Shown piece by piece: positions 20,301-51,884 of a DNA stretch of 52,008 nucleotides. This DNA is from Methylobacter sp. GTDB taxonomy: Bacteria > Pseudomonadota > Gammaproteobacteria > Methylococcales > Methylomonadaceae. The notes beneath the pieces are model-generated. The model was given only the letters and a program-made list of their open reading frames with translations, did no database searches and was not told the origin of the DNA. The translations under genes and the position numbers were made by a program. The DNA is taken from assembly GCA_026399025.1 (NCBI GenBank), contig JAPLRU010000010.1, forward strand, positions 1 through 52,008, written 5' to 3'. Numbering within the stretch: position 1 is the stretch's first letter; the number at the start of each line of letters is the position of its first letter.

Positions 20301-23300
20301 GCTGCTTGTATAGCGTTTACAAGACTTTGATGGACTCGTCCAAAAATACGCAACACCTCTTCTTGAAGTTTTAGATTCTGTTGCAAAAAAGAAATAACAG
20401 GATAATCCAGTGCGAACAGGGCAACCATAATCTCCGCGCTTTGCTGTAAATCTAGCGGTTGCTCCTGATATTTTTTTAATAATGGCTCAATCAAAGACTT
20501 TGCTTCACGCCCTTCAGCTAATGCGTCGATGATAAAAGGCGTAATAGAAGAATCCCTATGCAGGCGACTTGCTGAAAATTTATTGCGGCTGGCTAATAAT
20601 TCTTTAAGCTCTGCTTCCAACGCCGATCTCTCCTTATCCAAGGATTCGGTTAGCTGTTTTTTATCATCGCTGTCGGCTGTATTGTTGTTTTCTTCCTGGT
20701 TACGTTTAATATCGTTTAATACCTTGTTTCTTTGTTCGATTTTCTCCAATACGTAAGAATTCAAGCCCCCATATAGCAATATGCACAAACGTCGCCAAAT
20801 AGTGCTTTGTTCTAATACAACTATCCATTCCGGATTCTCCTCGGCTAACTCATATAACAACGAACCTTCCGGTTTAGGTAATAATAAAGGCTTAGTACTT
20901 ACAATATCACTGAGAGCCTTGTCAACGGACCAATCCAGATTTTCATCATCAAATGGCAATAACTGATAAATAAGTTCTGCTATTTCGGACGTATAAATAC
21001 GGCTAACTGTTACTAAGCGCACACAGGCAAGCGCATATTCCTTGTTGTTATTTTGCTCAAACTCCAGAGTGTTTAATATCTCCTCCTGTAATTTGCCATA
21101 ACTATGCTCCATTGCTTTGCAAGCATTGCTAAGCTGACAAAAAGCAGATTCTAATTGCCTTAATTGCTGTGGAAACTGTTTAAATTGACTGGCATTACTG
21201 TAGGCATTGATCATACCTTTAACTAAATCATGAATAACAGCATCGGGTACGCAATCCATTTCCCGAAGAGCAGAAGCAATTAGCAACAATGTAGTAGAAC
21301 AAGAACTACGGGCATTTTGTTTTGAGTTAAGCAAATTTTTAACAAGCAGTTCTAATTTGCCATCTAATTCTTTAGCCGACGTAAGAGCTTGCTGCCCCAG
21401 CGCCATCAGCAATGCTTCACGCCATCGCGCCGAGTCTATACGTTTTAAAAATTCTGCTTCCGGCTGGGACTGCGATAATAGCCATGTTCCAGCGAGATAT
21501 TCTTGAAAAGTCAGATGCAAAAAACTATAAACTCCAGGGGCTCGCATCGATAATAGCCCAATACCTTCACCTGCAAGCATTAACATATGTTCTATTTCTT
21601 TAACACTAATACCTCCATTTTCAAGGGCGGATTTTAGTTCGGTATCGGTTATAAAACCCAGGCTGGATTTCCCTAACATTTCAGCCGCCAGTTGGCTAAG
21701 CACCTTAAGCGTTTTCTCATGACTTGTTACCTTACCGATGCGTTCATCGCAGTGCTTTAAAAACTCCTCAATTGCCGCTTGGTATAATTGGGTGCGCTGT
21801 TCTGGAAGCTGGGCATTATTTCTCAAATATAATGCCGCTAAGATACTAAGCTGGACTGGGTTACTGGTTAAGTCATGCACCCCTTTTTCCCGAAGTTTGC
21901 TGATGCACAAAATAAATTGTTCAGCTTCTTCAATTGCAACTTGCTCTTTATTAAGCCAATCATTGGCATATTTATAGGTACGTCTGGCTTCAATGACATA
22001 TTTTTTGCAAAAGCGTTTTATGGCAATTTCCGACATGGGCTCTATGGTTAAATGTGTGGCTCTTGTACTTAAATGTGCCGATCGGTAACCGACCACGCGG
22101 CTGGTTATAATTACTTGGTTTCCTCCCGTTGTGACTGGCCAATCTTTGCCAGGGTCTTCCGATCTATCTAATTTTGAGAAGTCACTCCTTAAATAATAAT
22201 CCAAATAACCATCTATTTCTTTTACAATTTCACCACGCTCGGCTGGGTTATCTACTTCATCAAGCCCATCAATTAACAATATAGTTTTGCGTTGTTTAAT
22301 TAACTCGGTTAACCAGATATTTAATTGCTCCAAATTAATACTTTTGCCTGATGAAAGATTTATGGCAATGTCATCGGCATTTTGGGCAAGGTGATAACCA
22401 ATATAATCGCCCAAAACTTGTTTTTTATCTGGATTGGTTTTTCGCCACGCCCTAAAAGCAGCGACTCTTATAAAAATGGGTATTCTTTTAATACCAAGAT
22501 CGTCCATCTGGGTATTATTATCGTCTGCTTCAGGGTCTATCTTTGATAAAGGTACTTCAACACGTTCAGTGTTGCTGTTAAGAAAGGCATTGGATAATAT
22601 TACCGCCAGCCATTTAAGTAAGGTGGTTTTGCCACTTCCTGGCTCACCGAGAATGACTAAGCGCCGTTCACGTCGAAATGCTTCGCCTAAGGTAACAGTC
22701 TGATCAATATTTTTTGGAAAGAGTTTTAACAATTCTCGCTCAACAATATCAGTAGATTTTTCGTGAACATCGTGAATACCACCGTGCATTAAACTAAATA
22801 AATCAGTCTCACTGTGAATCGTACGAGTCAAATCCATTTCAACTTTTTCAGAATTAACTTTGAATTCTGGTGCATCAATGACTTCTCTTATTGCATCTTG
22901 AAGCGTCTCGTTAGTTATCGGCGGGTTAAATGTGTCAGACAAGCGCCCCTTCAGAGCTACATAAACATCATTAAGTTGAATTTCAGCTTTTTCCAATAAA
23001 GGAATTTTAATTTTTAGATTATTCTCAATTATCCAATCAAGGTACGCTTGGCTTAATTTCTCAATATCAGCTGATGCGCTACTTTTTAAAGGTTTGAACT
23101 TATTAACAAGGGTTGTGGGTAAGGTATCGAAGCTGATTGTCCCCGCATTCTGATTGACCCATCCTATGTGAGTAAATAATTCATTCCAGACATCGTGGGC
23201 ATTTGATGGTTCATGCAAGCGTGAACTAAGCATCGTTTTTATTTCCGCTAATTTGACTCCTGATTCGGTATCCAAATCCATACCAAGCAAATGAAAACAC

Positions 23301-23884
23301 TTAAGAAATCGCCAAAATATTTCATCATCTAAAGAGACGTTTTCATTAGCTTTTTCAAGATGATGTCTAAAAACAGCTAATTTATTTGTTTTTTCTTTAC
23401 TGCTAAATCCTTCAACATTTACTTCTTTGAAAAAATCAGCGGCACTAGCAGGGTAGCGAGCCAAATCAAGAATACGGCGTGTATGATCAGTGTCTGTCTT
23501 TGTTAATGGACCTGTAATTAAAGCGATATAATCGGTATCAGGATTGAATTTAGGATTGCAGAAATCTCTCCAAGCAGCATGGATAACATCGCTAAATTCA
23601 TTGGATCCCTCTGTTATGGAAACAACATGTTTGATTTGTACAAGTAATTTAGCTTTTTGACTATCATCCTTTGGGTCTTGTGCGAAAACGATACAGTCGT
23701 CTGTCTCGTAACCATCATAACGGCCTTGTAATTTAATCGATTTAATCGGCCAATTCGGCAAAACCGGAGCATGACCACCCATCAACATGAAAGCGGTAAA
23801 ATATGCCTGAACATTTTTTTCAAAATTCACTCCCCCGCCTCCCGTAGAAAATGAGTTGCTTTGTTGCGATGGTTTTGTGGTCAT
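17309..23884 (-). CDS. Giant nuclease-NACHT STAND ATPase, probable antiphage effector
   Basis: The 2191-residue protein starts at the ATG at 23884, which has GGGAG 8 bases upstream; an in-frame start at 23917 lacks this. Residues about 15-120 look like a Cap4/DUF4297-type PD-(D/E)xK nuclease: E22 in NFEKNVQAYF, D63 in DDCIVF, and Q83-x-K85 in VQIK. A NACHT ATPase follows, with Walker A GEPGSGKTT (413-421), Walker B LLIDGLDEVD (536-545), VIITSR (about 591-596) and the family marker HLTFQEYLAG (about 790-799). The remaining ~1390 residues are mostly helical and HEAT-like, the usual target-sensing part. STAND proteins of this build trigger DNA degradation when they sense phage components. The specific trigger here is unknown. 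Length is at the upper end for this class and no break is seen. Confidence 0.9.
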   Translation of the reverse strand: MTTKPSQQSNSFSTGGGGVNFEKNVQAYFTAFMLMGGHAPVLPNWPIKSIKLQGRYDGYETDDCIVFAQDPKDDSQKAKLLVQIKHVVSITEGSNEFSDVIHAAWRDFCNPKFNPDTDYIALITGPLTKTDTDHTRRILDLARYPASAADFFKEVNVEGFSSKEKTNKLAVFRHHLEKANENVSLDDEIFWRFLKCFHLLGMDLDTESGVKLAEIKTMLSSRLHEPSNAHDVWNELFTHIGWVNQNAGTISFDTLPTTLVNKFKPLKSSASADIEKLSQAYLDWIIENNLKIKIPLLEKAEIQLNDVYVALKGRLSDTFNPPITNETLQDAIREVIDAPEFKVNSEKVEMDLTRTIHSETDLFSLMHGGIHDVHEKSTDIVERELLKLFPKNIDQTVTLGEAFRRERRLVILGEPGSGKTTLLKWLAVILSNAFLNSNTERVEVPLSKIDPEADDNNTQMDDLGIKRIPIFIRVAAFRAWRKTNPDKKQVLGDYIGYHLAQNADDIAINLSSGKSINLEQLNIWLTELIKQRKTILLIDGLDEVDNPAERGEIVKEIDGYLDYYLRSDFSKLDRSEDPGKDWPVTTGGNQVIITSRVVGYRSAHLSTRATHLTIEPMSEIAIKRFCKKYVIEARRTYKYANDWLNKEQVAIEEAEQFILCISKLREKGVHDLTSNPVQLSILAALYLRNNAQLPEQRTQLYQAAIEEFLKHCDERIGKVTSHEKTLKVLSQLAAEMLGKSSLGFITDTELKSALENGGISVKEIEHMLMLAGEGIGLLSMRAPGVYSFLHLTFQEYLAGTWLLSQSQPEAEFLKRIDSARWREALLMALGQQALTSAKELDGKLELLVKNLLNSKQNARSSCSTTLLLIASALREMDCVPDAVIHDLVKGMINAYSNASQFKQFPQQLRQLESAFCQLSNACKAMEHSYGKLQEEILNTLEFEQNNNKEYALACVRLVTVSRIYTSEIAELIYQLLPFDDENLDWSVDKALSDIVSTKPLLLPKPEGSLLYELAEENPEWIVVLEQSTIWRRLCILLYGGLNSYVLEKIEQRNKVLNDIKRNQEENNNTADSDDKKQLTESLDKERSALEAELKELLASRNKFSASRLHRDSSITPFIIDALAEGREAKSLIEPLLKKYQEQPLDLQQSAEIMVALFALDYPVISFLQQNLKLQEEVLRIFGRVHQSLVNAIQAAAPLTLQALGSLSNQLPDHVWQELMGEIIELNLLYDGVPITVIELLKSAPDNTRIRVMAEQWQYFMASYGEDPLYNMAVVLDTVGNELAPDSLTLAHAFSLASHTATQYWKGHPGWFADTLARKPRTDRQYYAMALEVMAVIPQPLQFIRGWVIEMLAPGLLEDKHLKLNALWITLCLVPDQFNARNDALQALGVINNEGILSIAFHKMAKQYPRLVVESNNTEKPVAWEKVINELNSLPLVIQKNRSNRPNYEILDDVFALERSITDAPTVSADMILSILQMALKTNDCENIALLLIRLSFYIPFEIMSVMLCAALRIIDLIQDMTIKASLIKDAANIAQFFSDTQLLHGELVNAIESETLKLKASNYSGVYLNQQEIILNNKGGDATPLILGSRIHNLKYSLGYSDNIEAYWVGLAAQELSLKNAGDGYLDKIKRISEYKSVRLTRLAALSLEILRVKSPDNFLTALSLVEYPEPETRVLLIRWYELGTEEVKRYCSLLFAEIGYIRPETITDMIALLDIVEDRIRYRIAIIFYVEKLRKEQKLRVTQLGAKTLETLAEKCNTQKRPDIRQALGWAFEHIIHDDADALRDWAYQLDNKGSLKAAIENTLIARISYIDDLSEVWPTILNCLQHGSIDTKQALARSICVMLAKGTLSKQHWHDIERLIQDTNGECLGLFPVIEEVSLALAESIVEEAVRGADPTAFASVFLKRKTKPLSEWATELANKNPEELKRSLTRIGDNCLASTRFTERVASAAKFINNANAVNYLIDAMFYEISTPLKNDGLLYFGSELLSLLAATIETYPDIFYQVIGHPTNEKSFNELQAGLSKQLPKLARKHNTFTGRQAALLILSYLRRVTPEVCEALQYAMLDVPPVQEVALASIERYRYADKAVIDKLKPILVHKSTVTAYMAGLLMSRLARNKYLESTLRDSVITALRLAAENPENDRELHLFESLDSSDNYQIRHIGKLNQLFLAMVDDLTGASYFSNTDKKRN

Positions 23885-24030
23885 TGAATTACTCCCTATG
23901 GTCTCTTTGTAAGACACATTTCATTCTCTTGTTGAAGGAATATGCAGGTGTTGGACAATTCGTTCAAACATGCTGATTATGTCGGTAACTGAAGTTTCCT
24001 AGCCAATTTAATTTACACATTGCCGACCCT

Positions 24031-39169: not shown

Positions 39170-39538
39170 ATGTCAACAAAAAAACCTGAAACACCTCATC
39201 ACATTCTTCCAAGAATCATTCGTATCAAAGATGCGCCGTTTTACTTGGGAATGGACAAAAACCGTTTTAACACCGAAGTCAGACCATCGCTCACCGAGAT
39301 GAAAATCGGTACGCAAGGTATTGCCTTCGATCGCATTGAATTAGATGCCTGGGCCGATGACTACATGCTTCGGATCGGCACATCCAACAAACAAAAACAG
39401 GAGCAAAAAACATGGCAAAGAAAATCCCCGGCCTCGTCAAAAGGAACGACTGTTGGCACATCGACAAAGTCATCAGCGGCAGACGCATTTGCCAAAGCAC
39501 TGGCACAAGCGACCTCGAAGAAGCCCAAAGGTATCTAG
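39170..39538 (+). CDS. AlpA-like excisionase/regulator, overlapping the integrase gene
   Basis: A 122-residue protein. Residues 10-65 fit a MerR/AlpA-type winged helix (PRIIRIKDAPFYLGMDKNRFNTEVR, then IGTQGIAFDRIELDAWADDYM), the domain of excisionases and of AlpA. From about residue 75 the protein is Ser/Thr/Ala/Lys rich and low in complexity. That tail overlaps the integrase start in another frame by 127 nt. The ATG at 39170 puts the domain near the N-terminus; a start at 39137 is possible. It probably controls directionality of the downstream integrase. Confidence 0.8.
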   Translation: MSTKKPETPHHILPRIIRIKDAPFYLGMDKNRFNTEVRPSLTEMKIGTQGIAFDRIELDAWADDYMLRIGTSNKQKQEQKTWQRKSPASSKGTTVGTSTKSSAADAFAKALAQATSKKPKGI

Positions 39539-40527
39539 CAAAAATCATTGATGAGATTCGTCAAATAAGCATATACGGCGCAAGGCCTACTCGCACGTTT
39601 AGGGAAGCGGCAACCAAGTACCTACAAGAGGCGAATAAGCGCAGTTTAGCCAGGGATGCTTATTGTCTGAAAAATCTTGACCCTTTCATCGGCGATTTGG
39701 ACATTACCCATGTTCATATGGGAACACTGAACGCTTATATTGAAGCTCGAAAGGCAGCAGGCATCAAAAGCAAGACAATTTCACGGGATCTGGCCGTGCT
39801 CCGCAGGATTTTATCATTAGCGTCCAGAACCTGGAGAGACGAGTACAATAAACCCTGGATTGATACAGCGCCTCTCCTTGAGTTGCCTAACTGGGAAGAT
39901 GGAGCCGAACCCTATCCCTTAAACTGGAAGGAACAGGAGCGGTTCTTTAAGCTGCTTCCTGAGTATCTGCGAAATATGGCGCTATTTAAAGTCAATACCG
40001 GATTGCGCGAGCAAGGCGTATGCTGGCTGAGATGGGACTGGGAAGTAAAGTGTCCTGAACTTAACACGTCCATTTTTATCACGCCTGGAAAGCGGGTGCA
40101 GTATGATGACGGCCTGTGGGGCGGCGAGAAAAACAAAGAAGATCAAATTGTAGTTTTGAATCAGGTCGCGCTTTCCGTTATCGAAGGCCAGCGCGGACTT
40201 CATCCGGTTTATGTGTTTCCCTTTCAGGGTCGACGTATCGGAAAAATACATACTACGGCGTGGAAAAATGCCTGGAAAAAAGCAGGGCTACCGGTTGATG
40301 GTTCCCATAATAAAGGACCGCATAATCTTAAGCATACCTTTGGTCGGCGTTTAAGATCGGCAGGTGTGCCCTTGGAAACGCGCAAGGTGTTGCTGCATCA
40401 TAAATCCGGCGACATTACTACGCATTATTCCGGCGCAGAGCTTAAAGAGTTAATTAATGCGGTAGAAAGCCTGTGTGAAGTTGAGAACGGTATTGCTCTG
40501 ACTTTGTTAAGGCGAGGAGGTAAATAA
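39412..40527 (+). CDS. Tyrosine integrase of an integrative element
   Basis: A 371-residue integrase. The N-terminal arm-binding domain (KIPGLVKRNDCWHIDKVISGRRI) is followed by a core-binding domain and a catalytic domain with Arg in NTGLREQGV, H-x-x-K in PHNLKHTFGRRL (a known variant of H-x-x-R), His in VLLHHKSGDIT and nucleophile Tyr in THYSGAEL. AGGAG precedes the ATG inside the upstream gene. A strong terminator follows at 40554. The next operon is leftward, so this integrase marks a module boundary; it may mobilise the ABC-transporter operon, but no att pair was found. Confidence 0.93.
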   Translation: MAKKIPGLVKRNDCWHIDKVISGRRICQSTGTSDLEEAQRYLAKIIDEIRQISIYGARPTRTFREAATKYLQEANKRSLARDAYCLKNLDPFIGDLDITHVHMGTLNAYIEARKAAGIKSKTISRDLAVLRRILSLASRTWRDEYNKPWIDTAPLLELPNWEDGAEPYPLNWKEQERFFKLLPEYLRNMALFKVNTGLREQGVCWLRWDWEVKCPELNTSIFITPGKRVQYDDGLWGGEKNKEDQIVVLNQVALSVIEGQRGLHPVYVFPFQGRRIGKIHTTAWKNAWKKAGLPVDGSHNKGPHNLKHTFGRRLRSAGVPLETRKVLLHHKSGDITTHYSGAELKELINAVESLCEVENGIALTLLRRGGK

Positions 40528-41021: not shown

Positions 41022-42872
41022 TTATTTCCTAGAAATTAAAGAATAAATATAAGCTACGAATATACCAAGATGAAAGAATCCAGAAACAATGACTATGCAA
41101 GATACACCAATTAGCCACCAACATGAGTCAGATGTTGCGGCAGTACCAGAGAAAAAAGCACTAAAGACTCCAGAAATTGCGGATTTCCAATTATGAATAT
41201 CTTCAATAAACCACCACACCGTACTTGAAATACCCAACCATAACAGAATTGCAAGTATAAATTTTGTAAAAGAAGATAAAAGAGACTCTGCATATCTCAA
41301 AATCAATTGGCAAGGATTAAATGTTTTTAATCCAATCAACTGACGATGCCAGTGGCGTGTTTTAACCATGCACTCGTGTTCTTCTTCGAAACGCCCCCCC
41401 TCGCGGAAAATCTTGGCTAAGCGGTTCATGATAATAACTAGCGATTGCAGTTTAGATTCCTCTTGTTTTTTCTCCGCAAACCATTGCGTAATGATTTCAA
41501 CTTCCCGCTCGATTTCCTCAATGCGGGTCGTGACATCAAAATGATAGCCAACGCCAACAAATGTACATTCTGCTTTCACCTCAAATTCATGTTTCAACAT
41601 CAATGCTTGCAGTGTTAAGGTCGGGGTCATACCACTTAAAAGTTCTGTCGCTTCAGTTGCCAATACTGCTCCCTGAATGAAGTCCTGTACTGTCTGTGCT
41701 TTAGGTAATAACTTAGTAGCACGATTTAACAAGGCTTCTGCAATCAACATAAGTTTTCCAGGCGCACCATGACCAACACCTTCGACACCACTCGTTTGTT
41801 TGGTTAATTTAGATAACCCCCAAAATCCTTGAGCATAGCCCAATTTATTTTTAGATAACAATCCCGCATCTCGCCAAAGATCCATCATTCCGCCAACTGG
41901 CTTGTAAATCAGCCGTCCATGACCTTTTTTCTTATTTTTTTCAATATATCCTTTATTCTTTTCCAGTGTTATACCACCATCCATATCATGACCCGTGGTA
42001 ATTAGCACTCTAAATTTAGAACTTTCTTGTGCAGTTCCTGATTTCAGTTTAGGAAAATGATACTCCCTACCTTGAGGGTTATTATGCTTATCTGAGGTGA
42101 GATCAAGAGCTAGAATATGCGCATTGTTTTTTTTATCTGGAAAGTTGAGGCTCATATCCTCCAGAAGAATCTCAAAACCATGATTATTACTGTCATCAGA
42201 GCCAAAAAGCTTCTTCATCAACGACCATGAAGTAACAACATCAGACTGATACCCATAACGGAATGCCGTATAGCCATAAAAATAGGAAAAATACTTTTCA
42301 TCATCAATTGCAGCTACTTTGTACATTCGTTTCGGAAGCTCAAATTCTGGACAACTATCCTTGTAATGCTTAACGGTGCAAAACTTCACCCATTGTCGCA
42401 ATCCTAACGAATCAAATAGAGGGTCTTTCCTTGGACAGGAAAGTAAACTTGGCATGGAATGTTCAGAAGCTAAAAACTTAACATTATCTTGTGAATTTTC
42501 CAGATTTCCTGACACTACCCCAAAAACCCAATGTATCTCAGGAAATGTTAGTATTAGCATGGCAATTAAATTGTCCCAAGTTACTCCTTCAGCAATGGCA
42601 CTGAGTTCTATAGGTCTTATTGCATCGACTAATATCGCAATCTTATTTAATGGGATTGTTCCTTCATTCCCATTAGCTGCACATTCGATGGATTTCACCA
42701 AATACTCATAAGCTAATATTCCGCTTTCCCCACTGACAGCATAAGATTCACGATTCCAGATAATACGCCTAGAATCGGAAGGACTTAGCTTAGGTTCACC
42801 GAGTAACTCCAGCCAAGTGTCTAACGCACAGGCAGTGACTTCAGATTGAGCGAGAATGAGGTAACTGGTCAT
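41022..42872 (-). CDS. Unknown protein with C-terminal two-helix membrane module, last gene of the ABC-signalling operon
   Basis: A 616-residue protein from the ATG at 42872 (an in-frame TTG at 42917 adds 15). The N-terminal ~120 residues look like an alpha/beta sensor fold (TSYLILAQSEV, then KIAILVDAIRP, then IHWVFGVVSG). The middle (VLITTGHDMDGG; GVGHGAPGKLMLIAEALLNRA) has a conserved look with His residues but no family I can name. A helical segment with EIEREVEIITQWFAEKK follows. The C-terminus has two hydrophobic helices (about 535-556 and 585-612) around a Ser/Thr-rich hydrophobic loop (GVFSAFFSGTAATSDS), ending in a basic tail. This loosely resembles two-helix ion channels and may be a membrane effector; that is inference only. 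Confidence 0.7.
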   Translation of the reverse strand: MTSYLILAQSEVTACALDTWLELLGEPKLSPSDSRRIIWNRESYAVSGESGILAYEYLVKSIECAANGNEGTIPLNKIAILVDAIRPIELSAIAEGVTWDNLIAMLILTFPEIHWVFGVVSGNLENSQDNVKFLASEHSMPSLLSCPRKDPLFDSLGLRQWVKFCTVKHYKDSCPEFELPKRMYKVAAIDDEKYFSYFYGYTAFRYGYQSDVVTSWSLMKKLFGSDDSNNHGFEILLEDMSLNFPDKKNNAHILALDLTSDKHNNPQGREYHFPKLKSGTAQESSKFRVLITTGHDMDGGITLEKNKGYIEKNKKKGHGRLIYKPVGGMMDLWRDAGLLSKNKLGYAQGFWGLSKLTKQTSGVEGVGHGAPGKLMLIAEALLNRATKLLPKAQTVQDFIQGAVLATEATELLSGMTPTLTLQALMLKHEFEVKAECTFVGVGYHFDVTTRIEEIEREVEIITQWFAEKKQEESKLQSLVIIMNRLAKIFREGGRFEEEHECMVKTRHWHRQLIGLKTFNPCQLILRYAESLLSSFTKFILAILLWLGISSTVWWFIEDIHNWKSAISGVFSAFFSGTAATSDSCWWLIGVSCIVIVSGFFHLGIFVAYIYSLISRK

Positions 42873-43006
42873 AGATTTATCATAAAAACTAAAGTTGTTT
42901 CTAAGCAAAAGTAACAAAACGGAGAACCGTCATAACAGTCAAGCGGAAATAAGACTGCCAAAAATCAGTACAAGGTAGATGTTTTTAGCAAATGCAGATT
43001 ATGGAT

Positions 43007-43693
43007 TCATATTGATAATTTAAAATATTCAACTAATTGCTTGTGTATTTTAGAAAAATCGGGGGCTTTATTTATATCAGATGACCATAACCAATCAAGC
43101 AAACTTCTAACTTCCGACAACTCAATAAAATTGTTTACACCCAGACCAAAAGCAATTATAAAATCATTTTGTTCATAACCTTGAAAGATTTCCAACCATT
43201 TCGTTTTATTAGTTTTCCATTCCTTCTGGCGATCTAAAATTGAAATATTATCACTTGACAGCGTGATATATGAACTCAATATAACCAGGGAATTTACAAG
43301 GTAATCTTTTTGGTGAGCTTTAAAAGCTATATCTACTGTATTTAGGTTAAAATCCTTTGGTAGCTTTTCTAGTAATTTTAAAAGGTTTTCCCATCGTAAA
43401 TAATACAAACAACCTGTCGATGTGGTTACGTCGTTTTGTTCAACAATATCGCCCGCAGTATAAAAAAAAACAGTTGCTCCTGATTCGCAAAGTTGCTTAT
43501 ATTGAAGATTCGAGAGATCAGTCAAATGTGCTAAAATTAAATAATCACTACCTAGTTTCTGAGTATTCCATATTTCAGCAGTAATATCTAAATTGGAAAA
43601 TAGTTTAAGCAATTTGTCACGACGTAAGAGAATCACGTTGTTATCAGTTGATAACTCTTTGCCTGTCTCATCAAAAATAAAAACTTTAGTCAT
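43007..43693 (-). CDS. Unknown protein, possible receiver-like fold
   Basis: A 228-residue soluble protein. The N-terminal ~90 residues alternate strands and helices (KVFIFDETGK; DYLILAHLTDL; ATVFFYTAGDI) in a way that recalls receiver or other Rossmann-like domains, but the canonical receiver Asp/Lys set is not clearly complete. The C-terminal half is helical with tryptophans (LLDWLWSSDI). It starts 9 bases after the 436-residue gene and lies 134 bases before the membrane-module gene. It is probably cotranscribed with both. No family is recognised. Confidence 0.65.
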   Translation of the reverse strand: MTKVFIFDETGKELSTDNNVILLRRDKLLKLFSNLDITAEIWNTQKLGSDYLILAHLTDLSNLQYKQLCESGATVFFYTAGDIVEQNDVTTSTGCLYYLRWENLLKLLEKLPKDFNLNTVDIAFKAHQKDYLVNSLVILSSYITLSSDNISILDRQKEWKTNKTKWLEIFQGYEQNDFIIAFGLGVNNFIELSEVRSLLDWLWSSDINKAPDFSKIHKQLVEYFKLSI

Positions 43694-43702
43694 TTATCGA
43701 AA

Positions 43703-45013
43703 CTACTCTATCCAATTAAATTCAATACATACGACATTTGAGTTATGGGAAGTCCTTGTAGAGAAAGCAGATAATTCATCCCATGCTCTTCTAACTCTAC
43801 CTTTTCTACCAGTATAGGTTGAAGAAAAAATAGCCTCTGGAAGTTCATCAGAATATGTCATAGAGAGTATCGTTTTTTTATTATTTATGTTGTTAGTGAT
43901 GGAAATAGTTACGATGTAAGCCATATCTTTCTCGAATTGCTCTGGGATAATAAGCCAGTACCTAAGGGCTGCTGCAAACTCTCCATAATTCTTTCCCTCA
44001 GGTAGAAGAATACTTCCAAGAGCTTTAAGTTTGTCGATATTTTTAGACGGGATTGAATATAGAGGTGATTGCACAGAATAGTTACACCTCTGTTCTAAAT
44101 AACACACACCTTCACAGATGGCAATCATGGCTGTAACTGGAACAAAATTAGAACCAATAACAGAGGTTTGAAACGCTTTACCAGCCAGCCATCGGTGTGC
44201 TGCTGTGCTTGGTGGTAAACCCAAACTAGCCTCTTGACTGCACCATCGCCAGATGCCGTATTGGTCATGTTGATCTTGAGATAATTTTTTGCAAATCTTT
44301 TGTCTAATTTCGGCTTGGGTGTTGATAATTCCGCTTGGATTATGACAGCAGTGCTGGGTCAAATGATGGAAATTAGTATCACTTATATGTCCTTGAATTC
44401 CTAACAGCCACTCTTGAATTTTAAGCTTTAATTCTGGGTAACCTCCCTGTGGTGGTTCTTTATAAATGATAGGTGTACTCATAACCGAATCAGGAACAGC
44501 CATGCCCCCTCTTGTAAGCCTTGCTCTAACAAAAATAGGGCAACCCAATTGATCAATCAATTCCCAAGTTTCAATAAACCGTTCTGATTCCTTTAGTTTT
44601 TCTGATCCATTTGAATCGTCTCTAATATCTATTAAGAAGATCCATCCTGAAGACGCATAATTATCGGGATGGGATTGTAAGATAGCCTTGAGTTTCTCAA
44701 CAGAGCGGGGAAAGTTGCAAAGTGTTACACCAGAGATTCCTTTTGTGTTAAAAACCATCCACGGAAGCAACAGCAGTGTACGCTCATAGATTTCATCTGA
44801 AGGATAAAATGTATTCCAATAATCAAGTAATTTCTGGAGGTTTAAGCACTTTTCACCTAAACCTTCTATCTTGCTTCCAGTAAGATCACTCGTTTCACCT
44901 TCAATCAGTGCCTTAATTACATCCCATCTGTCATCAATTACAAGCAAGCCCCATCTGGCATTTTCTGCCTCAAAATCGATATTCAAATAATAATCACTAG
45001 AATGTATTTTCAC
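43703..45013 (-). CDS. Unknown protein with receiver-like N-terminus
   Basis: A 436-residue protein. It starts at GTG sharing one base with the previous stop (TAGTG), with AGGGG upstream: tight coupling. The N-terminus has WGLLVIDDRWDVI (acidic pair at 27-28), and near 124-133 WIFLIDIRDD places an Asp at a strand end. Together these recall CheY-like receivers, with a long insertion between them. The rest (WRWCSQEASLGLPPSTAAHRWLAG; LYSIPSKNIDKLKALG; a C-terminal GRKGRVRRAWDELSAF) is unrecognised. It may be an output or adaptor protein of the operon. Confidence 0.65.
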   Translation of the reverse strand: MKIHSSDYYLNIDFEAENARWGLLVIDDRWDVIKALIEGETSDLTGSKIEGLGEKCLNLQKLLDYWNTFYPSDEIYERTLLLLPWMVFNTKGISGVTLCNFPRSVEKLKAILQSHPDNYASSGWIFLIDIRDDSNGSEKLKESERFIETWELIDQLGCPIFVRARLTRGGMAVPDSVMSTPIIYKEPPQGGYPELKLKIQEWLLGIQGHISDTNFHHLTQHCCHNPSGIINTQAEIRQKICKKLSQDQHDQYGIWRWCSQEASLGLPPSTAAHRWLAGKAFQTSVIGSNFVPVTAMIAICEGVCYLEQRCNYSVQSPLYSIPSKNIDKLKALGSILLPEGKNYGEFAAALRYWLIIPEQFEKDMAYIVTISITNNINNKKTILSMTYSDELPEAIFSSTYTGRKGRVRRAWDELSAFSTRTSHNSNVVCIEFNWIE

Positions 45014-46659
45014 TATGAATACCCCTGAGTTTTCGAGTGAATACGAGTTTTAGTAAGCCACTGACCTTGGTTAAAATCAAAGTATGGACCCTCAATAGAA
45101 TAACTAACAGAATGGTCGGGAATATCGGACAACTTATTTGCTAACTCGCTGAGTTCGATAGCATCTTTTGATGTTTTAAATTTATCTTCTTCTTTGACTA
45201 TAGGATTCAAAATTTGGCATTCGAAGATAGTTTCACCCTCTGATTCAGTAACATTGACACTAATGCAAACGAATTCATGACCTAGAATGCGAGATCTTAA
45301 TGTGTGATAGAAAGCCTGTTTAATAGATAAAAGAATTAAAACTGCAAAATTGGTATGTATTAAGTGTTTCTTGATTGACGCACTAATTTCAGGTAATGGT
45401 GTGAAAAGCTTGCGATAATACTCAAAACCCAGTTGTCCAGGTTGATTTTCTGGCAATAACAATCCTAAACGCCCTTCTTTACGCACATTAGGTTCTGTTT
45501 CAGGCGCATTCTTTGCGCGGGAAAAACCGAGCTGGATTCCAATGTCACGGTAAACCTCAAGCGGGTTAGCTACATCTTCCCAAGGATAGGGAAAATCGCC
45601 CGTATTAGTCCGTGAATCCTTAGTACGATATGAATTGATGATAACTCCAAGTGTAGAAAGATGAGCTAGTAATAAAGGACCTATTTCCTTTTGCGTTTCA
45701 TCTGGAAGTCTTTTAATACCTTCTAAAATGTTATCGATAGTAGCTGAAGTTTGATGAGCGAAATTTATTCTTTCATCTTTACGACCCATTAATTGATCCA
45801 ACTGATTTCTTGAAGCTGCACCAATAGAATCTATTACCATCATGCGAATAAAATTTACTAAATGCAATTCGTCTTGTTCATTTAAACATTTATCCAAACC
45901 CATAAAAAAAGAGCCATAGAATAAATAATTCATTCTATTGTTGCTTCTCTTGATCCAGCAAGAAACAGGTACTATAAAAACTTGCGCAAGGCGGCGACCG
46001 CGTGAGGACAATAATTTATTTTCGTTATTCTTTAAAAGCTCAATATATCGATTGATATTTGTAAAAACAGATGTATCTTCCGTACCATACCTGTCTTTTT
46101 TAGATAAGTTTTCAATCATTATAGGGTATGATTGAAGTTCAGGTTTTTTAACTACAGTTGGTTGGTTCGGTAATTGCTCAGATATATTTATATTATTAAC
46201 AATATACGAAGATTCAATTTTTGATTGATTAGCTAGGGTTAAATGACTTTCTAATTCATTTTGGGTTTCAGGCTTGTAATTGGAGTCGAATAAAGGCAAA
46301 CCTGCTTTGAAAACGGGATGAGCAGCAACACTCTTATAGTCATCAAGAAGTTCTTTAATAACCAAGTCGTAGGTAGATTTTACTTCTTCACTTGGAGTGA
46401 TAAGAAACCCTCTGACAACATCTGCCGCTAAAATTGATGCCACGTCTAAAAAACAAAGCATATCTTCAAATTTTAATTCAGGTAAAACATTAGAACTTTC
46501 AATTCTATCTAAAAATCGATCCCCAATTATTTTAGAGGCTATTTTTATTTCATCCGCTGTTGCGGAATTCGAGAAAAGATTATCGTCTGATATAAGTGTT
46601 ACCGTAGATCGTATTATATTTCCAACATCTTGTGGTATATATGATTCACTTTCGTACAT
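45013..46659 (-). CDS. Unknown protein with weak histidine-kinase-like features
   Basis: A 548-residue protein without membrane segments. A segment at about 300-312 (FAHQTSATIDNIL) resembles an H box with His302 followed by a long helical hairpin (to ~345). Near 440-490 there is a helix and paired strands (VLILLSIKQAFYHTLR; FVCISVNVTES; ETIFECQILNP) reminiscent of the GHKL N-box helix and strands, but the canonical N and G boxes are missing. I infer a degenerate kinase or scaffold, with low certainty. Its stop shares one base with the next start. The binding-protein gene lies 51 bases upstream, tying it to the transporter. Confidence 0.65.
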   Translation of the reverse strand: MYESESYIPQDVGNIIRSTVTLISDDNLFSNSATADEIKIASKIIGDRFLDRIESSNVLPELKFEDMLCFLDVASILAADVVRGFLITPSEEVKSTYDLVIKELLDDYKSVAAHPVFKAGLPLFDSNYKPETQNELESHLTLANQSKIESSYIVNNINISEQLPNQPTVVKKPELQSYPIMIENLSKKDRYGTEDTSVFTNINRYIELLKNNENKLLSSRGRRLAQVFIVPVSCWIKRSNNRMNYLFYGSFFMGLDKCLNEQDELHLVNFIRMMVIDSIGAASRNQLDQLMGRKDERINFAHQTSATIDNILEGIKRLPDETQKEIGPLLLAHLSTLGVIINSYRTKDSRTNTGDFPYPWEDVANPLEVYRDIGIQLGFSRAKNAPETEPNVRKEGRLGLLLPENQPGQLGFEYYRKLFTPLPEISASIKKHLIHTNFAVLILLSIKQAFYHTLRSRILGHEFVCISVNVTESEGETIFECQILNPIVKEEDKFKTSKDAIELSELANKLSDIPDHSVSYSIEGPYFDFNQGQWLTKTRIHSKTQGYS

Positions 46660-46710
46660 TTTTTAAATTCTATTTTAATATTAACTTTATGATATATTTT
46701 ATAAAGTTTT

Positions 46711-47895
46711 TTAATTAGATAATAATTCAAGTTTCCCTTGAGCATTAACCTTTAACAATCCAAGTGCTGAGTTTAAGTCGCCTTCATCATCAACTGTAAT
46801 ATTGCCAGAAATGCCACTATACGGTAGTTGAGCCTTAATATCATTTTTTGATACCCCCTTTGTTTTACTGTAAGAAAGTACCAATAATCGCCCAGTATCA
46901 TAAGCGAATGCTGGAATATAGTTAGGCGTTTTACCAAATTTTGTATTGTATTGTTTTTGCCACCCATCTTTATTTGCAATCATGCCTGGTATTTCAAATG
47001 GTGGAGCTATATATGCAGCACCTGTAAGTTCGCCTATGGGAGTATTACTATAAAGTAAATCTATAAAGTCCATTCCGCATAAAACATTTCCGTCAGCTAA
47101 CATACTCTGCGCTCGAAGAGATTGAATTATAGGAAGGATTTGAACAGAATATCCACTTATTAAAATGAGATCTGGTTGGAATTTTTTTACCTTAGCTATA
47201 AGGGTGTTAAAGTCTTTAAAACCCCAATCAAAAACTTCGCGTTGAAATTCCATACCCTGTTTTTTTAATTCTGGATCAACAAAGGAATCGAATTCCTCAA
47301 GAATTGCCACGTTGTTTAATATTATTGAAAATACTCTTTTTGCACTACGCATTTTTGCATATTTAGCATACATTGGTCCTTCAATTTTGAAATGCGGTAA
47401 TATTCTTAAACGATTGACTCCTTTTGAAGTAATAAACGCATCAAATGAAACTAAAAGATGTGGGGCTGATGAAGTATCAAGCTCTTTGGCAATCGCTAAA
47501 GATACCTCAGAAGTGCCAGAAATGTATGCGTCAAAACCATTTATACGTTGTTTTTCCATTATTGACACGGCTTGAACAGGCTTACCTGTATTATCTTGAA
47601 CATCTAGTTCAAATTTATCGCAAGGTACATTTAGCTCCTTGCATCCATCTTCTATACCCATTCGTAGCCCATTTGCATATTCACCACTAAATGCGGCTAT
47701 AGGTCCACTTAATGGAATATTAACGGCTATTTTTTCTATGGATGGTTTTATATCTGTAACTGGTTTATCAATGATGTGCTTCCAATTCAAGGAAACATAA
47801 CTAAACTCTTCTGGAAAATTAATAACCAGATTGATAGTACCCAGTATTCCAACAACAAGCCCAACAATAAAAATAATTACTATGCGAAGTTTCAT
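46711..47895 (-). CDS. LivK/AmiC-type periplasmic ligand-binding protein, membrane anchored
   Basis: A 394-residue Peripla_BP_6 protein. After an N-terminal hydrophobic helix (IVIIFIVGLVVGILGTINLVI), which has no lipobox and no obvious signal-peptidase site, comes the binding fold: IAVNIPLSGPIAAFSGEYANGLRMGIED, then KPVQAVSIMEKQRI, then a second lobe with FQPDLILISGYSVQILPIIQ and PAFAYDTGRLLVL. Such proteins bind amino acids, amides or related small ligands for the Liv-type transporter encoded upstream. The probable membrane anchor suggests sensing as well as transport. ATG 47895 is preferred over TTG 47904. Confidence 0.85.
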   Translation of the reverse strand: MKLRIVIIFIVGLVVGILGTINLVINFPEEFSYVSLNWKHIIDKPVTDIKPSIEKIAVNIPLSGPIAAFSGEYANGLRMGIEDGCKELNVPCDKFELDVQDNTGKPVQAVSIMEKQRINGFDAYISGTSEVSLAIAKELDTSSAPHLLVSFDAFITSKGVNRLRILPHFKIEGPMYAKYAKMRSAKRVFSIILNNVAILEEFDSFVDPELKKQGMEFQREVFDWGFKDFNTLIAKVKKFQPDLILISGYSVQILPIIQSLRAQSMLADGNVLCGMDFIDLLYSNTPIGELTGAAYIAPPFEIPGMIANKDGWQKQYNTKFGKTPNYIPAFAYDTGRLLVLSYSKTKGVSKNDIKAQLPYSGISGNITVDDEGDLNSALGLLKVNAQGKLELLSN

Positions 47896-48020
47896 GATTT
47901 TCAAACCTTGATTGTGTCAAGTGCAAATTTCAGGAGACAATAGCAAAGATATAAAATTGCTATCTGCTACCATCAAATTTTGTTATATAAAAGTAGTAGA
48001 TTGCTACATGATTAGTCCTA

Positions 48021-49559
48021 TCATGGTTTATATCCAAAAGGTATTGTAATAAAAACAGCTTTTGTTTTTAGCCCTGAAAGAAGATGAGTAATAACTTCAG
48101 CAACTGCATTATAGTCCAAACCATGAAACGGTTCATCTAAGACATTAAGTGTAGATGATAAAGAAGGTGCTATTTGACACAGAAAAGCCAATCTTTGTTT
48201 TTCTCCACCACTAAGCGATGAACATTTGCGATTAGCAATATTTGGAAAGAATATAGAAATATCTGTTTGGTTATTGGTAATTTCAATAATTTCTTTTACG
48301 CTGAGATTAGGGAAAAGTTTCTCATTTGAAGTTAAAACTTTTAACCCTTTATGAATACGTTCCCACACAGGATTGTCATTAATGGATTGTCCAAAAAGAC
48401 AAATATCACCTAAGCGCGGTGTAATCAATCCAGAAATAGCTCCAATTAACGTACTTTTTCCCCAACCATTTGGGGCTTGTAATATCACTATTTCGCCTTC
48501 ATAAAGTGTGAGCGAAAAACCTCTAATATCTCCTTGGTCGTCAAGTCCAATGATGTCCCGTTGCCCACGATTAATTACCAAATCTTTTATCTCCAGCACA
48601 GGGTTAGATGGGCTATTAAAAAAATCAGGTTGCCGAATCCGCGTCAATAAAGCCCCATGTGGAAGTGACTCTTCTATAAAATCGGTATTTTTACCAGCAA
48701 GCAAGGAAAACCAAGCGGGTCTGGCGGTATCGGTCGATGAAACATGAATAGGTGTTTGAGCAGTGGAGACGGTGATGTCTCTATTATCCAACAGCCAATC
48801 CGTAGTGATTAAGCCCTGCAAGTGTGATTGATTAAACAGATGTTCGACAATCACCAAAGTCAGATGTTGTTCATTAACCAGCGATTGAAGCAAAGTCAAA
48901 ACGTCATTAATTCCTTGCCGATCTAGCCCTGACAAGGGTTCGTCAAGAAACAAGATTTTTGCACCCGACAGTACAGCACGGGCGATGGCAACACGCTTAG
49001 ATTGACCTAAGGAAATCTTGTCGGCGGAGGAGTCTTCTCGACCTGCTAGCCCTAGGTGAGTAAGCATAGTATTGGCAGCTTGGTTGATTTCAACTTCACG
49101 TTCAATGACGTGGTGGGGCGAGAATAGGGCGAAGAAAGGATTGTCTCCAAAACGGTTAGACATAGCAATTGCGAGATTGTCACGCAAAGATTGTGAGCCG
49201 AACAAACGCACATCCTGCCAAGTACGACCTATGCCTTCGCGGGCAACGAATTCTGGCGTGAAGTGGTCGAAAGGATTTAACTCCTGCCACCAACGTTGAG
49301 GAAAGCAATAAGATCGAGGGCTTCCGTTAGAGAAATAATTGATTTCTCCTGAGTCTGGTTTCAGATTGCCAGTGAGGATATTCAGTAGGGTAGTTTTGCC
49401 TGAGCCATTCTCGCCACGCAGTAGTATTACTTCACCTTGACGCAGTTCAAGTTCTATTTTATCTAACACGACTTGCCCGCCAAATGCCTTGCACAGTCCT
49501 TGAGCGTGTAGGAGTATAGGGGCTTCTTCTGATTTAGGAAAAACAGAGATGGTAGGCAT
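48021..49559 (-). CDS. Fused double ABC ATPase of branched-chain-amino-acid type (LivG-LivF fusion)
   Basis: A 512-residue protein with two complete nucleotide-binding domains. First: Walker A GENGSGKTT (49-57), signature ISLGQ (182-186, diverged), Walker B ILFLDEP (202-208). Second: Walker A APNGWGKST (362-370), signature LSGGEKQ (449-455), Walker B LNVLDEP (471-477). The first domain has the GIGRTWQDVRLF stretch typical of LivG. In normal Liv transporters the two ATPases are separate genes, so this fusion is unusual. It should power the two permeases encoded upstream. The gene lies 18 bases after livM and 125 bases before the binding-protein gene. Confidence 0.92.
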   Translation of the reverse strand: MPTISVFPKSEEAPILLHAQGLCKAFGGQVVLDKIELELRQGEVILLRGENGSGKTTLLNILTGNLKPDSGEINYFSNGSPRSYCFPQRWWQELNPFDHFTPEFVAREGIGRTWQDVRLFGSQSLRDNLAIAMSNRFGDNPFFALFSPHHVIEREVEINQAANTMLTHLGLAGREDSSADKISLGQSKRVAIARAVLSGAKILFLDEPLSGLDRQGINDVLTLLQSLVNEQHLTLVIVEHLFNQSHLQGLITTDWLLDNRDITVSTAQTPIHVSSTDTARPAWFSLLAGKNTDFIEESLPHGALLTRIRQPDFFNSPSNPVLEIKDLVINRGQRDIIGLDDQGDIRGFSLTLYEGEIVILQAPNGWGKSTLIGAISGLITPRLGDICLFGQSINDNPVWERIHKGLKVLTSNEKLFPNLSVKEIIEITNNQTDISIFFPNIANRKCSSLSGGEKQRLAFLCQIAPSLSSTLNVLDEPFHGLDYNAVAEVITHLLSGLKTKAVFITIPFGYKP

Positions 49560-49577
49560 GGTTGATGCTTAAATTAA

Positions 49578-50477
49578 TTATTCTAACCGATAATTGCCCG
49601 CGATACCTTGCGGTCTAAAGTGCATTAGCAAAACCAATAATAGCCCATAAATCAACAAACGCAGATTGGCGGCTTGAGCATCTGGGAAGTCAAAGAAACG
49701 CAGTATTTCTGGCAAGCCAACCAATATCGCAGCACCAACTAATGGCCCACGAAAATTACCTAGACCACCAACGATGACCATGTTTAACATTAGAATGCTT
49801 TCATCCAACGATGCAGAATCTGGGTTGAGGTAACGCACATGGGTAGCATACAAAGCACCTGCGACCGCTGCGATGGCACTGGCAATGGCGATGGCTTGAA
49901 TTTTCGCTAGGCGAGTGTTCTTGCCAAGTCCTCTTGCGGCTAGCTCATCATCTCGCATGGCAAGTAGCAGCCGACCCCAAGGGGACGATTTTAGCCGCCA
50001 TAATATAAAACCACATAATCCCGCTACTCCAGTAGCGAATACAGCATAGTCGAAAGTTCCATTGATTTCCCAGCCAAACAACTTGGGACTAGGAATACCA
50101 GTGAGTCCAAACGAACCGTTAGTGAGGTTTTCCCAAGAGCCAATCGGGTATTTGGAACTAGACCAGTTGTAAATAGCACTGTATATCAGGGTTTGTACTG
50201 CCAAGCTGGCAAGCACGAAGAAATCACCTCTCAATCGCCAAGCAGACAGGGAAATAGTCAAACTTGCCACCGCTGAGAGGAAAGCTCCAGTCAACATCGC
50301 GGGTAGGAATCCCCAGTTGGCAGTCAACATCAGCAAGGCACAAGCATAGCCGCCAATTGCGTAGAAACTTGCGTGAGCCAAAGTCAATAGACCACAATAG
50401 CCAACCACAAGATTGAGACTCAGAGCCAAGATAGCGTAAATATCGAAATAAACCAACAAGTGCAAAAGATAATTCAT
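49578..50477 (-). CDS. LivM-like ABC permease
   Basis: A 299-residue membrane protein with about eight to nine hydrophobic segments. Family motifs: ALSLNLVVGYCGLLTLAHASFYAIGGYA near the start; LLLAMRDDELAARGLGKN, the cytoplasmic EAA-like loop that contacts the ATPase, near the middle; and MVIVGGLGNFRGPLVGA near the end. Its ATG overlaps the stop of the LivH-like gene by 4 nt. Together the two form the channel of the transporter. Confidence 0.93.
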   Translation of the reverse strand: MNYLLHLLVYFDIYAILALSLNLVVGYCGLLTLAHASFYAIGGYACALLMLTANWGFLPAMLTGAFLSAVASLTISLSAWRLRGDFFVLASLAVQTLIYSAIYNWSSSKYPIGSWENLTNGSFGLTGIPSPKLFGWEINGTFDYAVFATGVAGLCGFILWRLKSSPWGRLLLAMRDDELAARGLGKNTRLAKIQAIAIASAIAAVAGALYATHVRYLNPDSASLDESILMLNMVIVGGLGNFRGPLVGAAILVGLPEILRFFDFPDAQAANLRLLIYGLLLVLLMHFRPQGIAGNYRLE

Positions 50478-51343
50478 GAGACCGACTCCAGACGAGTTTT
50501 TTTACCTAGCAAGCCTTGTGGACGAAGCAGAAGGAATAGTGCCAGCAACGCAAAGGTGGTCATATCTTGCCAGCGAGCCGAGCTATACCAAGTCACTTCC
50601 GCTCTGATCAAGCCTAACAGTAAAGCCCCTAGTACAGCACCACAAAACGAGCCTTGACCGCCAACGATGACAGCTACGACCGCGAGCAATACCGCGTGTA
50701 AGCCTGCGTAAGGCTCGAAGCCGTTATCATAGGCGGTGACTAAGGCACTGATAGCCGCGAACATGCCGCCTAAGGCGAAAGCAAGCAAACGGTGGCTGTT
50801 AATGTTGTAACCAAACAGAGTGAATTGGATTGGATTGTCAGCCAATGCCCGTAACCGTAAGCCCAATTTTGAATAACGTAGAAATAGAGCGAATCCACCG
50901 ATGGATACAATAGCAGAAAGCAAAGTAACCCACTGTGCGCCAGTGACAACGATATTGTCACCAAATGTCGTGACTGAATCTAACTCCATTCTCAGAGTTT
51001 TAGTATTGTTGCCCCAAACCATCGCAATCATTTGGACTATAACTATGTAAATTCCCAACGAAGAGATTAACTGCACCCCATCGGAAGCATTACACCGAGC
51101 AAGTCTGCCATGATTTGCCCATTCACAGAATGCTGACAGCATTGCTCCACCCACAATTGCAACAATAACAGCGAAGCTCATTCCTCCAGTATCTTTAACT
51201 GCTATGGCAATACAAGGCACGATAGAGTACAGACCGCCTAACGCAATAAAGAACACTCGTGTAGGCAAATAAACAATTTGAAAAGCCAATGCCAACAAAG
51301 CAATAGAGGAACCAGAAATTAGACCATTGATGAGAGCTTGCAC
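50474..51343 (-). CDS. LivH-like ABC permease
   Basis: A 289-residue membrane protein of the LivH family: LINGLISGSSIALLALAFQIVY at the start, the coupling loop LGLRLRALADNPIQFTLFGYN, then HAVLLAVVAVIVGGQGSFCGAVLGALLLG. The start is a GTG at 51343. It is the first gene of the leftward eight-gene operon, so the promoter should lie in 51344-51460; a TATACT-like hexamer is seen on the minus strand near 51385-51390, without a good -35. A stray conserved Pro-rich end (LLRPQGLLG) is normal for the family. Confidence 0.92.
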   Translation of the reverse strand: MQALINGLISGSSIALLALAFQIVYLPTRVFFIALGGLYSIVPCIAIAVKDTGGMSFAVIVAIVGGAMLSAFCEWANHGRLARCNASDGVQLISSLGIYIVIVQMIAMVWGNNTKTLRMELDSVTTFGDNIVVTGAQWVTLLSAIVSIGGFALFLRYSKLGLRLRALADNPIQFTLFGYNINSHRLLAFALGGMFAAISALVTAYDNGFEPYAGLHAVLLAVVAVIVGGQGSFCGAVLGALLLGLIRAEVTWYSSARWQDMTTFALLALFLLLRPQGLLGKKTRLESVS

Positions 51344-51462
51344 GATTAAATTCTTATGTTATTAGCACATTAATACAAAGAGTTAGTATACTTAGTTTAC
51401 AGAAGGATAGCTAAAGTCTGGGCGATTCTTAAAACCATTTAAGACTGATATGTCAATATTTT

Positions 51463-51639
51463 TCAGGACACATTCCCAGCCCTTAGCGATTCAAGACAGC
51501 GGGTCAATTCGGGGCGTTTTTTGACCGCGTCGCTTGCCGTGTCGCTGAAGATATGATCGCAGCCTGCTTTTTTAAGAGCGTTAATCTGCAAATCCGCTTT
51601 TTGATCGTCGATCGAAACCCGTGCATAGCCATATTTCAT
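51463..51639 (-). pseudogene. Serine resolvase N-terminal fragment
   Basis: A 58-codon frame encodes the start of a Tn3-type serine resolvase/invertase: KYGYARVSIDDQ (nucleophile Ser at residue 9), then LKKAGCDHIFSD and KRPELTRCLESLRAG. It stops abruptly at TGA where ~130 more residues are expected (rest of catalytic domain and HTH). It is a relic of a transposon next to the operon's promoter end. Confidence 0.88.
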
Positions 51640-51884
51640 GCTGCATTGTTAGACAAAATTATTAGACTTGCAAGTCTTTGTTTTTATGTGCTTCTTATGC
51701 TATATAAAAAACCTTCGTTTTCTAGACAACCACCACTTCATTCTTCCATATTTTTTGCCGCAAAGCTGCCAGTCGCGACCGGCAGAAATTGGCCGCAAGC
51801 AGTCGCTCTATATTTTTCCCGACATGTCAGAATCTTTCGGGCAGAAAATTATTGTTTTGAAGATAGAACGTAACTACTCGCCCC

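Follow-up and report, generated by a model that had tools for sequence, protein, structure and literature searches.

A Liv-type transporter operon with signalling-like partner genes in Methylobacter, and similar arrangements in unrelated bacteria, suggest an undescribed small-molecule sensing system

Introduction

Among described systems, the nearest arrangement to the one reported here is the Bce-type module (BceAB-BceRS; PMC10314905), in which an ATP-binding cassette (ABC) transporter is the sensor and the signal is handed to an adjoining two-component system. The locus in question is an eight-gene operon of a Methylobacter sp. genome, lying in a stretch of 52,008 nucleotides (nt; contig JAPLRU010000010.1, hereafter the window), in which a Liv-type ABC importer is followed by four proteins of 548, 436, 228 and 616 amino acids (aa). 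Compared with the Bce modules, the operon differs in having a Liv-type importer with a binding protein, then a predicted soluble kinase-like protein, receiver-like proteins and a membrane protein, with enzymes in the sister loci; a BceB-type permease is not present in it, its permeases belonging to PF02653.

Other known systems share individual parts. The Lsr autoinducer-2 system likewise combines a binding protein, an importer built from two permeases and a fused double ATPase, and dedicated signal processing, but no LsrK or LsrR relative was recognised in this operon by Pfam (no dedicated search was made), and the processing parts here resemble a phosphorelay. Ordinary Liv/Urt transporters of branched-chain amino acids and urea/amides use the same permease, ATPase and binding-protein families; here, in contrast, the ATPases are fused, LivM is 25–35% identical to that of five control loci and lies on a separate branch, and signalling-like genes are attached. 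Sister loci also encode receiver and sigma-54 AAA proteins like the NtrC/PspF/RtcR-type activators, the AAA part matching RtcR/PspF models; however, four of the five sister activators carry a long insertion in the N-terminal receiver and have no Pfam receiver match where scanned, and the window operon has no such protein. Set against two-component phosphorelays, the sister loci contain three clear receivers, and phosphotransfer is putative.

No described system of this composition was found in searches of the open-licence literature, a scope that does not prove absence. The gene set and its order are conserved between loci, the parts are linked, the transporter forms a distinct lineage, and receiver and sigma-54 domains occur in the sister loci. 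That similar arrangements, in which sensor and enzyme parts are interchangeable, recur in unrelated bacteria suggests an undescribed small-molecule sensing system.

Results

A complete Liv-type importer and four signalling-like proteins in one operon

The open reading frame (ORF) listing of the window contains eight consecutive minus-strand ORFs at 41022-51343, bearing out the operon, with its coordinates and spacings, that the initial annotation had proposed:

50474..51343, minus strand: LivH-like permease, 289 aa, GTG start (PF02653, E 1.5e-24; 46-58% identity to LivH of eight sister loci)
49578..50477, minus strand: LivM-like permease, 299 aa (PF02653, E 5.6e-37; 56-70% identity to eight sister loci, 25-35% to five control loci)
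48021..49559, minus strand: LivG-LivF fused double ATPase, 512 aa (PF00005 in two stretches)
46711..47895, minus strand: LivK-like binding protein, 394 aa from the ATG at 47895 (PF13458, E 1.2e-15; hydropathy)
45013..46659, minus strand: 548-aa kinase-like protein (45% identity over 250 aa to a Chlorobiaceae ORF of locus L033; motifs)
43703..45013, minus strand: 436-aa receiver-like protein (39% full-length identity to an L033 ORF, E 1e-101; VIDD, LIDI, LTRGG and YKE motifs by eye)
43007..43693, minus strand: 228-aa small protein, by eye possibly a pseudo-receiver (28% identity to an L033 ORF, E 8e-16)
41022..42872, minus strand: 616-aa terminal protein (40, 37, 37 and 34% full-length identity to four relatives; 30% over residues 82-608 of a fifth)
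41883..42317, minus strand: receiver-like stretch of the 616-aa protein (IDDE, LLEDMSLNFPD, TTG and YKP; in-register hhalign alignment to 25 receivers)

LivH and LivM overlap by 4 nt, 18 nt separate LivM from the fused ATPase, and the LivK ORF, which is open to 47904, begins 125 nt beyond the ATPase if the ATG at 47895 is taken; the 548-aa and 436-aa genes overlap by 1 nt, 9 nt separate the 436-aa and 228-aa genes, and the 616-aa ORF stays open as far as a TTG at 42917. Pfam and NCBIfam recognised the two permeases, the double ATPase and the binding protein of type I, so that the domain set of a Liv/HAAT-type importer is complete (two BPD_transp_2 permeases, two ABC ATPase domains, a type-I periplasmic binding protein). 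The second Walker A of the fused ATPase reads APNGWGK and is invariant in all nine aligned members (alignment A3); against PADLOC this protein matches solely as an ABC ATPase (mad3). Hydropathy places a hydrophobic stretch, likely an anchor or signal, at the N-terminus of the LivK-like protein.

The four downstream proteins gave chance-level matches only with Pfam and NCBIfam (E 0.19 or worse) and weak PADLOC matches for two (E 0.006 and 0.008); the 436-, 548- and 616-aa proteins had no match among Protein Data Bank (PDB) sequences at E 10, and a six-sequence 616-aa profile had two chance-level ones (E 0.19 and 0.2). By a rough hydropathy method the 548-aa protein has one weak hydrophobic stretch (67-88) and its 680-aa relative none. 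The 616-aa protein appears to consist of an alpha/beta N-domain, a receiver-like middle, a helical region and two C-terminal hydrophobic stretches (low-confidence AlphaFold2 model; hydropathy), the last of which agree with the two membrane helices first ascribed to it. Foldseek with this model returned no match at E 0.001, the best 50 of 268 being mostly helical-repeat proteins.

Upstream of LivH the contig continues for 665 nt, to its end at 52008. At 51460-51640 on the minus strand, just upstream of livH, the start of a cut-off serine recombinase is visible by eye, a mobile-element scar; since it occupies this gap, nothing indicates a ninth upstream gene. Sigma-54-promoter-like sites are not in excess (62 matches, 71.3 expected). 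The genome has two matches to PF02461 (methane/ammonia monooxygenase family), hence the host is probably a gammaproteobacterial methanotroph.

Relatives of the downstream proteins accompany sister transporters

Relatives were reached via the fused ATPase, by a genome-contig scan that used an alignment avoiding generic ABC motifs and two 8-residue patterns. Of 55 matching stretches, nine encode a transporter relative: Nostoc, Thiosymbion, one uncultured bacterium, and metagenome-assembled genomes (MAGs) of Chlorobiaceae, Aminicenantes, Zoogloea, Ignavibacteriales, Nitrospiraceae and Brocadiaceae, which we take to span about six phyla. Patterns of this length retrieve close relatives only, so the true number of loci is probably larger. 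LivH, LivM and ATPase are of the same type in the eight loci outside Nostoc, with one exception. In Brocadiaceae (L015, 7762-16413) the close copy is broken, and its LivH, LivM and ATPase fragments lie immediately upstream of another, more distant Liv set whose ATPases are separate, as if one transporter had taken the place of the other. Downstream DNA of the sister loci was taken in where contigs reached far enough.

The Chlorobiaceae MAG has relatives of all four downstream proteins. Its contig C202 (L033) encodes, in order, those of the 548-aa (E 5e-66), 436-aa and 228-aa proteins; next come a small protein and a sigma-54 activator, and last the 616-aa relative (E 1e-141). Because the relatives keep the same order, the four proteins of the window are no chance ORFs. 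The transporter half is found on a different contig, whose end falls within a methyltransferase ORF. Together, the ORFs at the two contig ends cover residues 2-652 of an 870-aa Zoogloea protein, and the two stretches were therefore taken as one operon, so that the four-gene stretch probably continues that MAG's transporter cassette. The Nostoc plasmid operon is arranged in the same way: its LivH, LivM, fused ATPase and LivK genes are followed by those of four hypothetical proteins (975, 485, 521 and 304 aa). Identities to the window are 62% for LivM, 49% for LivH, 43% for the ATPase and only 22% for LivK; its four downstream proteins have no significant BLAST similarity to those of the window (best E 0.062).

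Full-length relatives of the 616-aa protein stand at the downstream operon end in Thiosymbion, Zoogloea and Aminicenantes (the 37, 37 and 34% relatives listed above), and the fifth relative belongs to a second Aminicenantes operon, on the same contig as LivH, LivM, separate LivG and LivF, and LivK. In three of these loci a small ORF, membrane-spanning by eye, follows. The family is found in four of the nine comparison genomes or records that carry the transporter, and each of its six complete or nearly complete members (the window and five relatives) has a Liv transporter in the same genome, on the same contig for four relatives and on another in Chlorobiaceae. A profile of the family detected one of 398 genomes of the phylum, its own, and none of the other 397. 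Two short stop-containing matches to the C-terminal end of the family, on contig C9 (L035) of Aminicenantes G605, suggest decayed extra copies and were the only further matches in the searches made. That intact relatives turned up, in these searches, only with Liv-type transporters supports the initial proposal that transporter and partner proteins belong together.

Searches with the individual parts indicate that the operon is rare. The 548-aa protein was found in one of 201 family genomes, its own, and the four proteins joined as one query in one of 369 class genomes, again its own, where just the first and last proteins were reported, so that this result is weak for the 436- and 228-aa proteins; the 228-aa protein was never queried alone in these searches. 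Plasmid searches found nothing with the 436-, 616- or 548-aa proteins, the Zoogloea relative of the 616-aa protein or the Chlorobiaceae relative of the 436-aa protein, and searches of viral contigs with the downstream proteins likewise gave no match. The fused ATPase was present in one of 237 genomes of the same family (its own) and in one of 195 in the order of the Thiosymbion genome (Thiosymbion itself); it matched 205 plasmid records, and among the 40 listed only Nostoc carneum plasmid 2 exceeded 30% identity (42.6% over 97%; next listed about 29%). Viral contigs contained no relative of it, and its matches in phage records were generic ABC ones (best 10 of 206).

Sigma-54 activators bear on one alternative, nutrient scavenging, in which the transporter would bring in an unusual amino acid or amide as food and the additional genes would be no more than its private regulator. 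Such activators occur in five of the six loci with the 616-aa family, the transporter class is that of branched-chain amino acids and amides, and nitrogen-source transporters are often under sigma-54 control; a decarboxylase-like protein of Thiosymbion could also be catabolic. However, no other catabolic-looking protein was found among the operon proteins scanned, whereas control loci adjoin amidase, hydrolase, hydantoinase or proline racemase genes, and several extra signalling-like proteins, one of them in the membrane, exceed the needs of a transporter regulator. The activator N-domain, moreover, is strong in the same four genomes as the 616-aa family (53-100%) and absent from the window genome (five of ten exceed the threshold, the weakest of them with only 22 bits). 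We regard scavenging as unlikely. In three of four loci (L033, 4313-4903; L010, 14134-14682; L020, 13966-14490), Zoogloea being the exception, the activator is directly preceded by a small protein (174-196 aa) whose similarity from locus to locus is weak; the window operon contains no such gene.

A distinct transporter lineage with exchanged sensors and enzymes

A tree of 16 LivM sequences separates the fused-ATPase transporters from five control loci and two separate-ATPase relatives (the second set of L015, and L096) with local support of 0.995. Ten control regions had been considered: the tree includes three annotated Liv operons (L098, L099, L102), one found by tblastn and lacking annotation (L106) and one with a fused permease-ATPase (L105); L097, L100, L101, L103 and L104, whose binding protein has no adjoining Liv permeases, were left out, and L007, which has no annotation, was not used. 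On this small set, then, the transporter does not group with ordinary Liv operons; the opposite outcome is one that the initial annotation had named as refuting the functional link.

Permeases and binding proteins have diverged to very different degrees. Over 21 pairs (window, L006 and L008-L012, with readable LivK), LivM is 58-83% identical whereas LivK is only 17-49% identical, the extreme pair being Chlorobiaceae and Thiosymbion (LivM 83%, LivK 21%); among three ordinary Liv operons, a small control, the LivM/LivK values are 64/40, 63/42 and 88/86. Enzymes vary as well: a Pfam-supported methyltransferase of varying class follows LivK in six of the ten loci with readable DNA (L008, L010, L011, L014, L015, L034), Thiosymbion also has the decarboxylase-like protein (E 2.6e-4, below the cut-off), and Nostoc shows a weak methyltransferase hint only (E 0.043); for the uncultured bacterium, where a single long ORF past LivK was scanned, no enzyme was recognised. 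A fixed chassis with exchanged sensor and enzyme is the pattern that a ligand-specific signalling family would be expected to leave. In Aminicenantes (L009, 7472-10640 and 15044-16015), the fused ATPase and LivK are separated by a ThiF-like gene (weak, below the cut-off) and by genes for YcaO and a nitroreductase, and a clear ThiF occurs farther along; this set looks like modified-peptide chemistry inside a transporter operon.

The same enzymes could instead mark a biosynthetic cluster with re-import and self-regulation, the cassette being joined to genes for small molecules or modified peptides, whose production the signalling proteins would regulate. The YcaO, nitroreductase and ThiF genes of that one Aminicenantes locus, the Thiosymbion decarboxylase-like gene with its methyltransferase, and the recurrence of methyltransferases past LivK all fit such a cluster, which we nevertheless consider quite improbable: Pfam recognised no enzyme beyond the transporter in the window operon.

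Kinase- and receiver-like features

For profile comparison (hhalign), sets of 25 receivers and 26 kinases were drawn from the host genome, five of 30 and four of 30 loci with both strands open having been dropped. Both the N-domain of the sigma-54 activator (E 3.7e-6) and the Nostoc protein N304 (E 5e-9) matched the receivers and were thereby identified as such, the best of five reversed decoys reaching 2.8e-4; an Aminicenantes 140-aa protein (E 1.8e-4) lay near that decoy, its Pfam Response_reg match (0.0027) being below the cut-off. In the second Aminicenantes operon a standard NtrC-type regulator (Response_reg, E 1.4e-16, with a sigma-54 domain) lies about 0.4 kb upstream of livH, and a Brocadiaceae 631-aa kinase candidate matched the 26 kinases at E 8e-4 (best of five decoys 0.076). 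Between loci, a two-sequence profile of the 548-aa family matched the 870-aa Zoogloea protein (L011) at E 8.6e-6 (best decoy 0.025), and matches of the 548-aa family to an L034 140-aa protein (0.0099) and of the 228-aa family to a Zoogloea 274-aa protein (0.014) were marginal; for the 436-aa family, profiles of two to six sequences gave no link to positional equivalents outside Chlorobiaceae, and hhalign of single sequences, run on one pair, gave no result.

Motifs and homology to the sister loci point to the putative kinase and receiver assignments within the window operon. The 548-aa protein has an H-box-like FAHQTS (His302) and, 146 residues on, an N-box-like QAFYH (Gln448). The motif pair H[EQD][TL][RKST] ... 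[NQ][AIKTS]xxH within 60-420 residues, picked after the sequences had been read, occurs in six of eight kinase candidates (two lack it), one of 70 other ORFs of at least 350 aa and 62 of 4000 shuffles; the single background ORF is itself a member of the 616-aa family. That family aligns over nearly the full receiver length, with IDDE, the Asp of LLEDMSLNFPD, TTG and KP at the places of the receiver residues, at E 0.011. Since a reversed 228-aa-family decoy scored better (E 2.8e-4), the alignment was counted as motif evidence only.

Genomic setting

Other features of the window are:

39412-40527, convergent to the operon: integrase (ORF listing and Pfam)
17309-23917: 2202-aa ORF with a NACHT-like NTPase (E 3e-7)
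1.4-9.7 kb: type I restriction system

The integrase thus lies directly beside the operon, as first noted. The accompanying description of a defence island holds in part: the restriction system and the NACHT-like protein are within the window, but both are some 17-40 kb from the operon. An int-alpA RNA (Rfam RF02996) lies at 14039-14106, beside an integrase at 14115-15155, and four tyrosine recombinases were recognised in the window. In Chlorobiaceae (L008, 523-6816), the ORF upstream of the transporter operon encodes 2097 aa and matches NACHT only weakly (E 4.6e-5, below the cut-off).

A defence or conflict system, in which the sensor would detect a phage- or competitor-derived metabolite and the membrane protein would kill or arrest the cell, could account for the mobile setting with its integrases, the NACHT match upstream of the Chlorobiaceae copy and a membrane protein at the operon end. 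Yet the PADLOC matches of the four proteins are weak only, their Chlorobiaceae relatives have none at E 0.01, and the Chlorobiaceae partner proteins match strongly only in the sigma-54 AAA domain (the small protein weakly). Neighbours of the sister loci are mixed, some flagellar or housekeeping by eye, and no toxic domain was recognised. The conflict role initially suggested is therefore not borne out, and we judge it very unlikely. The operon may serve kin-sensing, the other role proposed there: enzymes of some sister loci could produce or alter a ligand, although none is recognised in the window operon.

Discussion

With moderate confidence, we interpret the operon as dedicated to sensing rather than feeding, a transporter-coupled phosphorelay that would report a specific, probably amino-acid-like ligand. 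The membrane-anchored LivK-like protein would capture this small molecule and dock on the LivH-LivM-LivGF importer, whose working state might be read by the predicted soluble 548-aa kinase-like protein; phosphate would then pass to the receiver-like domains of the 436-aa and 616-aa proteins, and perhaps of the 228-aa protein too, the 616-aa protein being the last element, held in the membrane by its two C-terminal helices. Wherever else the 616-aa protein was found, the locus also encodes a receiver-sigma-54 activator, which would give a transcriptional output; since the window operon has no such activator, the most likely candidates for its output are the membrane protein itself and a regulator of the host. 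The two-component parts found in the sister loci fit the earlier idea of receptor, relay and membrane output. The ligand, the kinase activity and phosphotransfer, and a direct contact of the kinase with the transporter are putative, deduced from sequence.

Several observations weigh against this interpretation, beyond the decoy value and the choice of motifs given above. No window protein has a significant kinase or receiver profile match (none for the 548-aa protein among the 26 kinases of its own genome, and none for the 436- and 228-aa proteins among the receivers), and in the window and Chlorobiaceae kinase-like proteins the N-box Asn is replaced by Gln, so that both may be inactive. AlphaFold2 models are poor (mean pLDDT, a confidence score, of 35.7 for the 436-aa protein alone and 56 for the 616-aa protein with four sequences). 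A sigma-54 activator is present, in some form, at each of the other five loci of the 616-aa family but not in the window operon, and that family is missing from five of the nine transporter-bearing genomes or records (the Nostoc plasmid and four genomes). The Chlorobiaceae operon is split over two contigs whose ends do not overlap, with a stop in the L033 frame near the contig start, and the known loci are few, many of them from MAGs.

A wider and more speculative proposal, which we think unlikely as it stands, is that of a modular family of private channels, in which matched pairs of binding protein and small-molecule enzyme would be plugged into a fixed chassis of Liv-type transporter and relay, so that each host would make and hear its own molecule; the window copy, in whose operon neither an enzyme nor a sigma-54 activator was recognised, would have retained the receiving side and so represent a listener-only form in a methanotroph. 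If the sensing interpretation is right, an amino-acid-type importer would have been turned into a receptor driving a multi-step relay, with sensor and enzyme modules swapped across distant phyla, and the operon would provide a defined gene set for finding new signalling molecules, together with a defined family of 616-aa membrane proteins.

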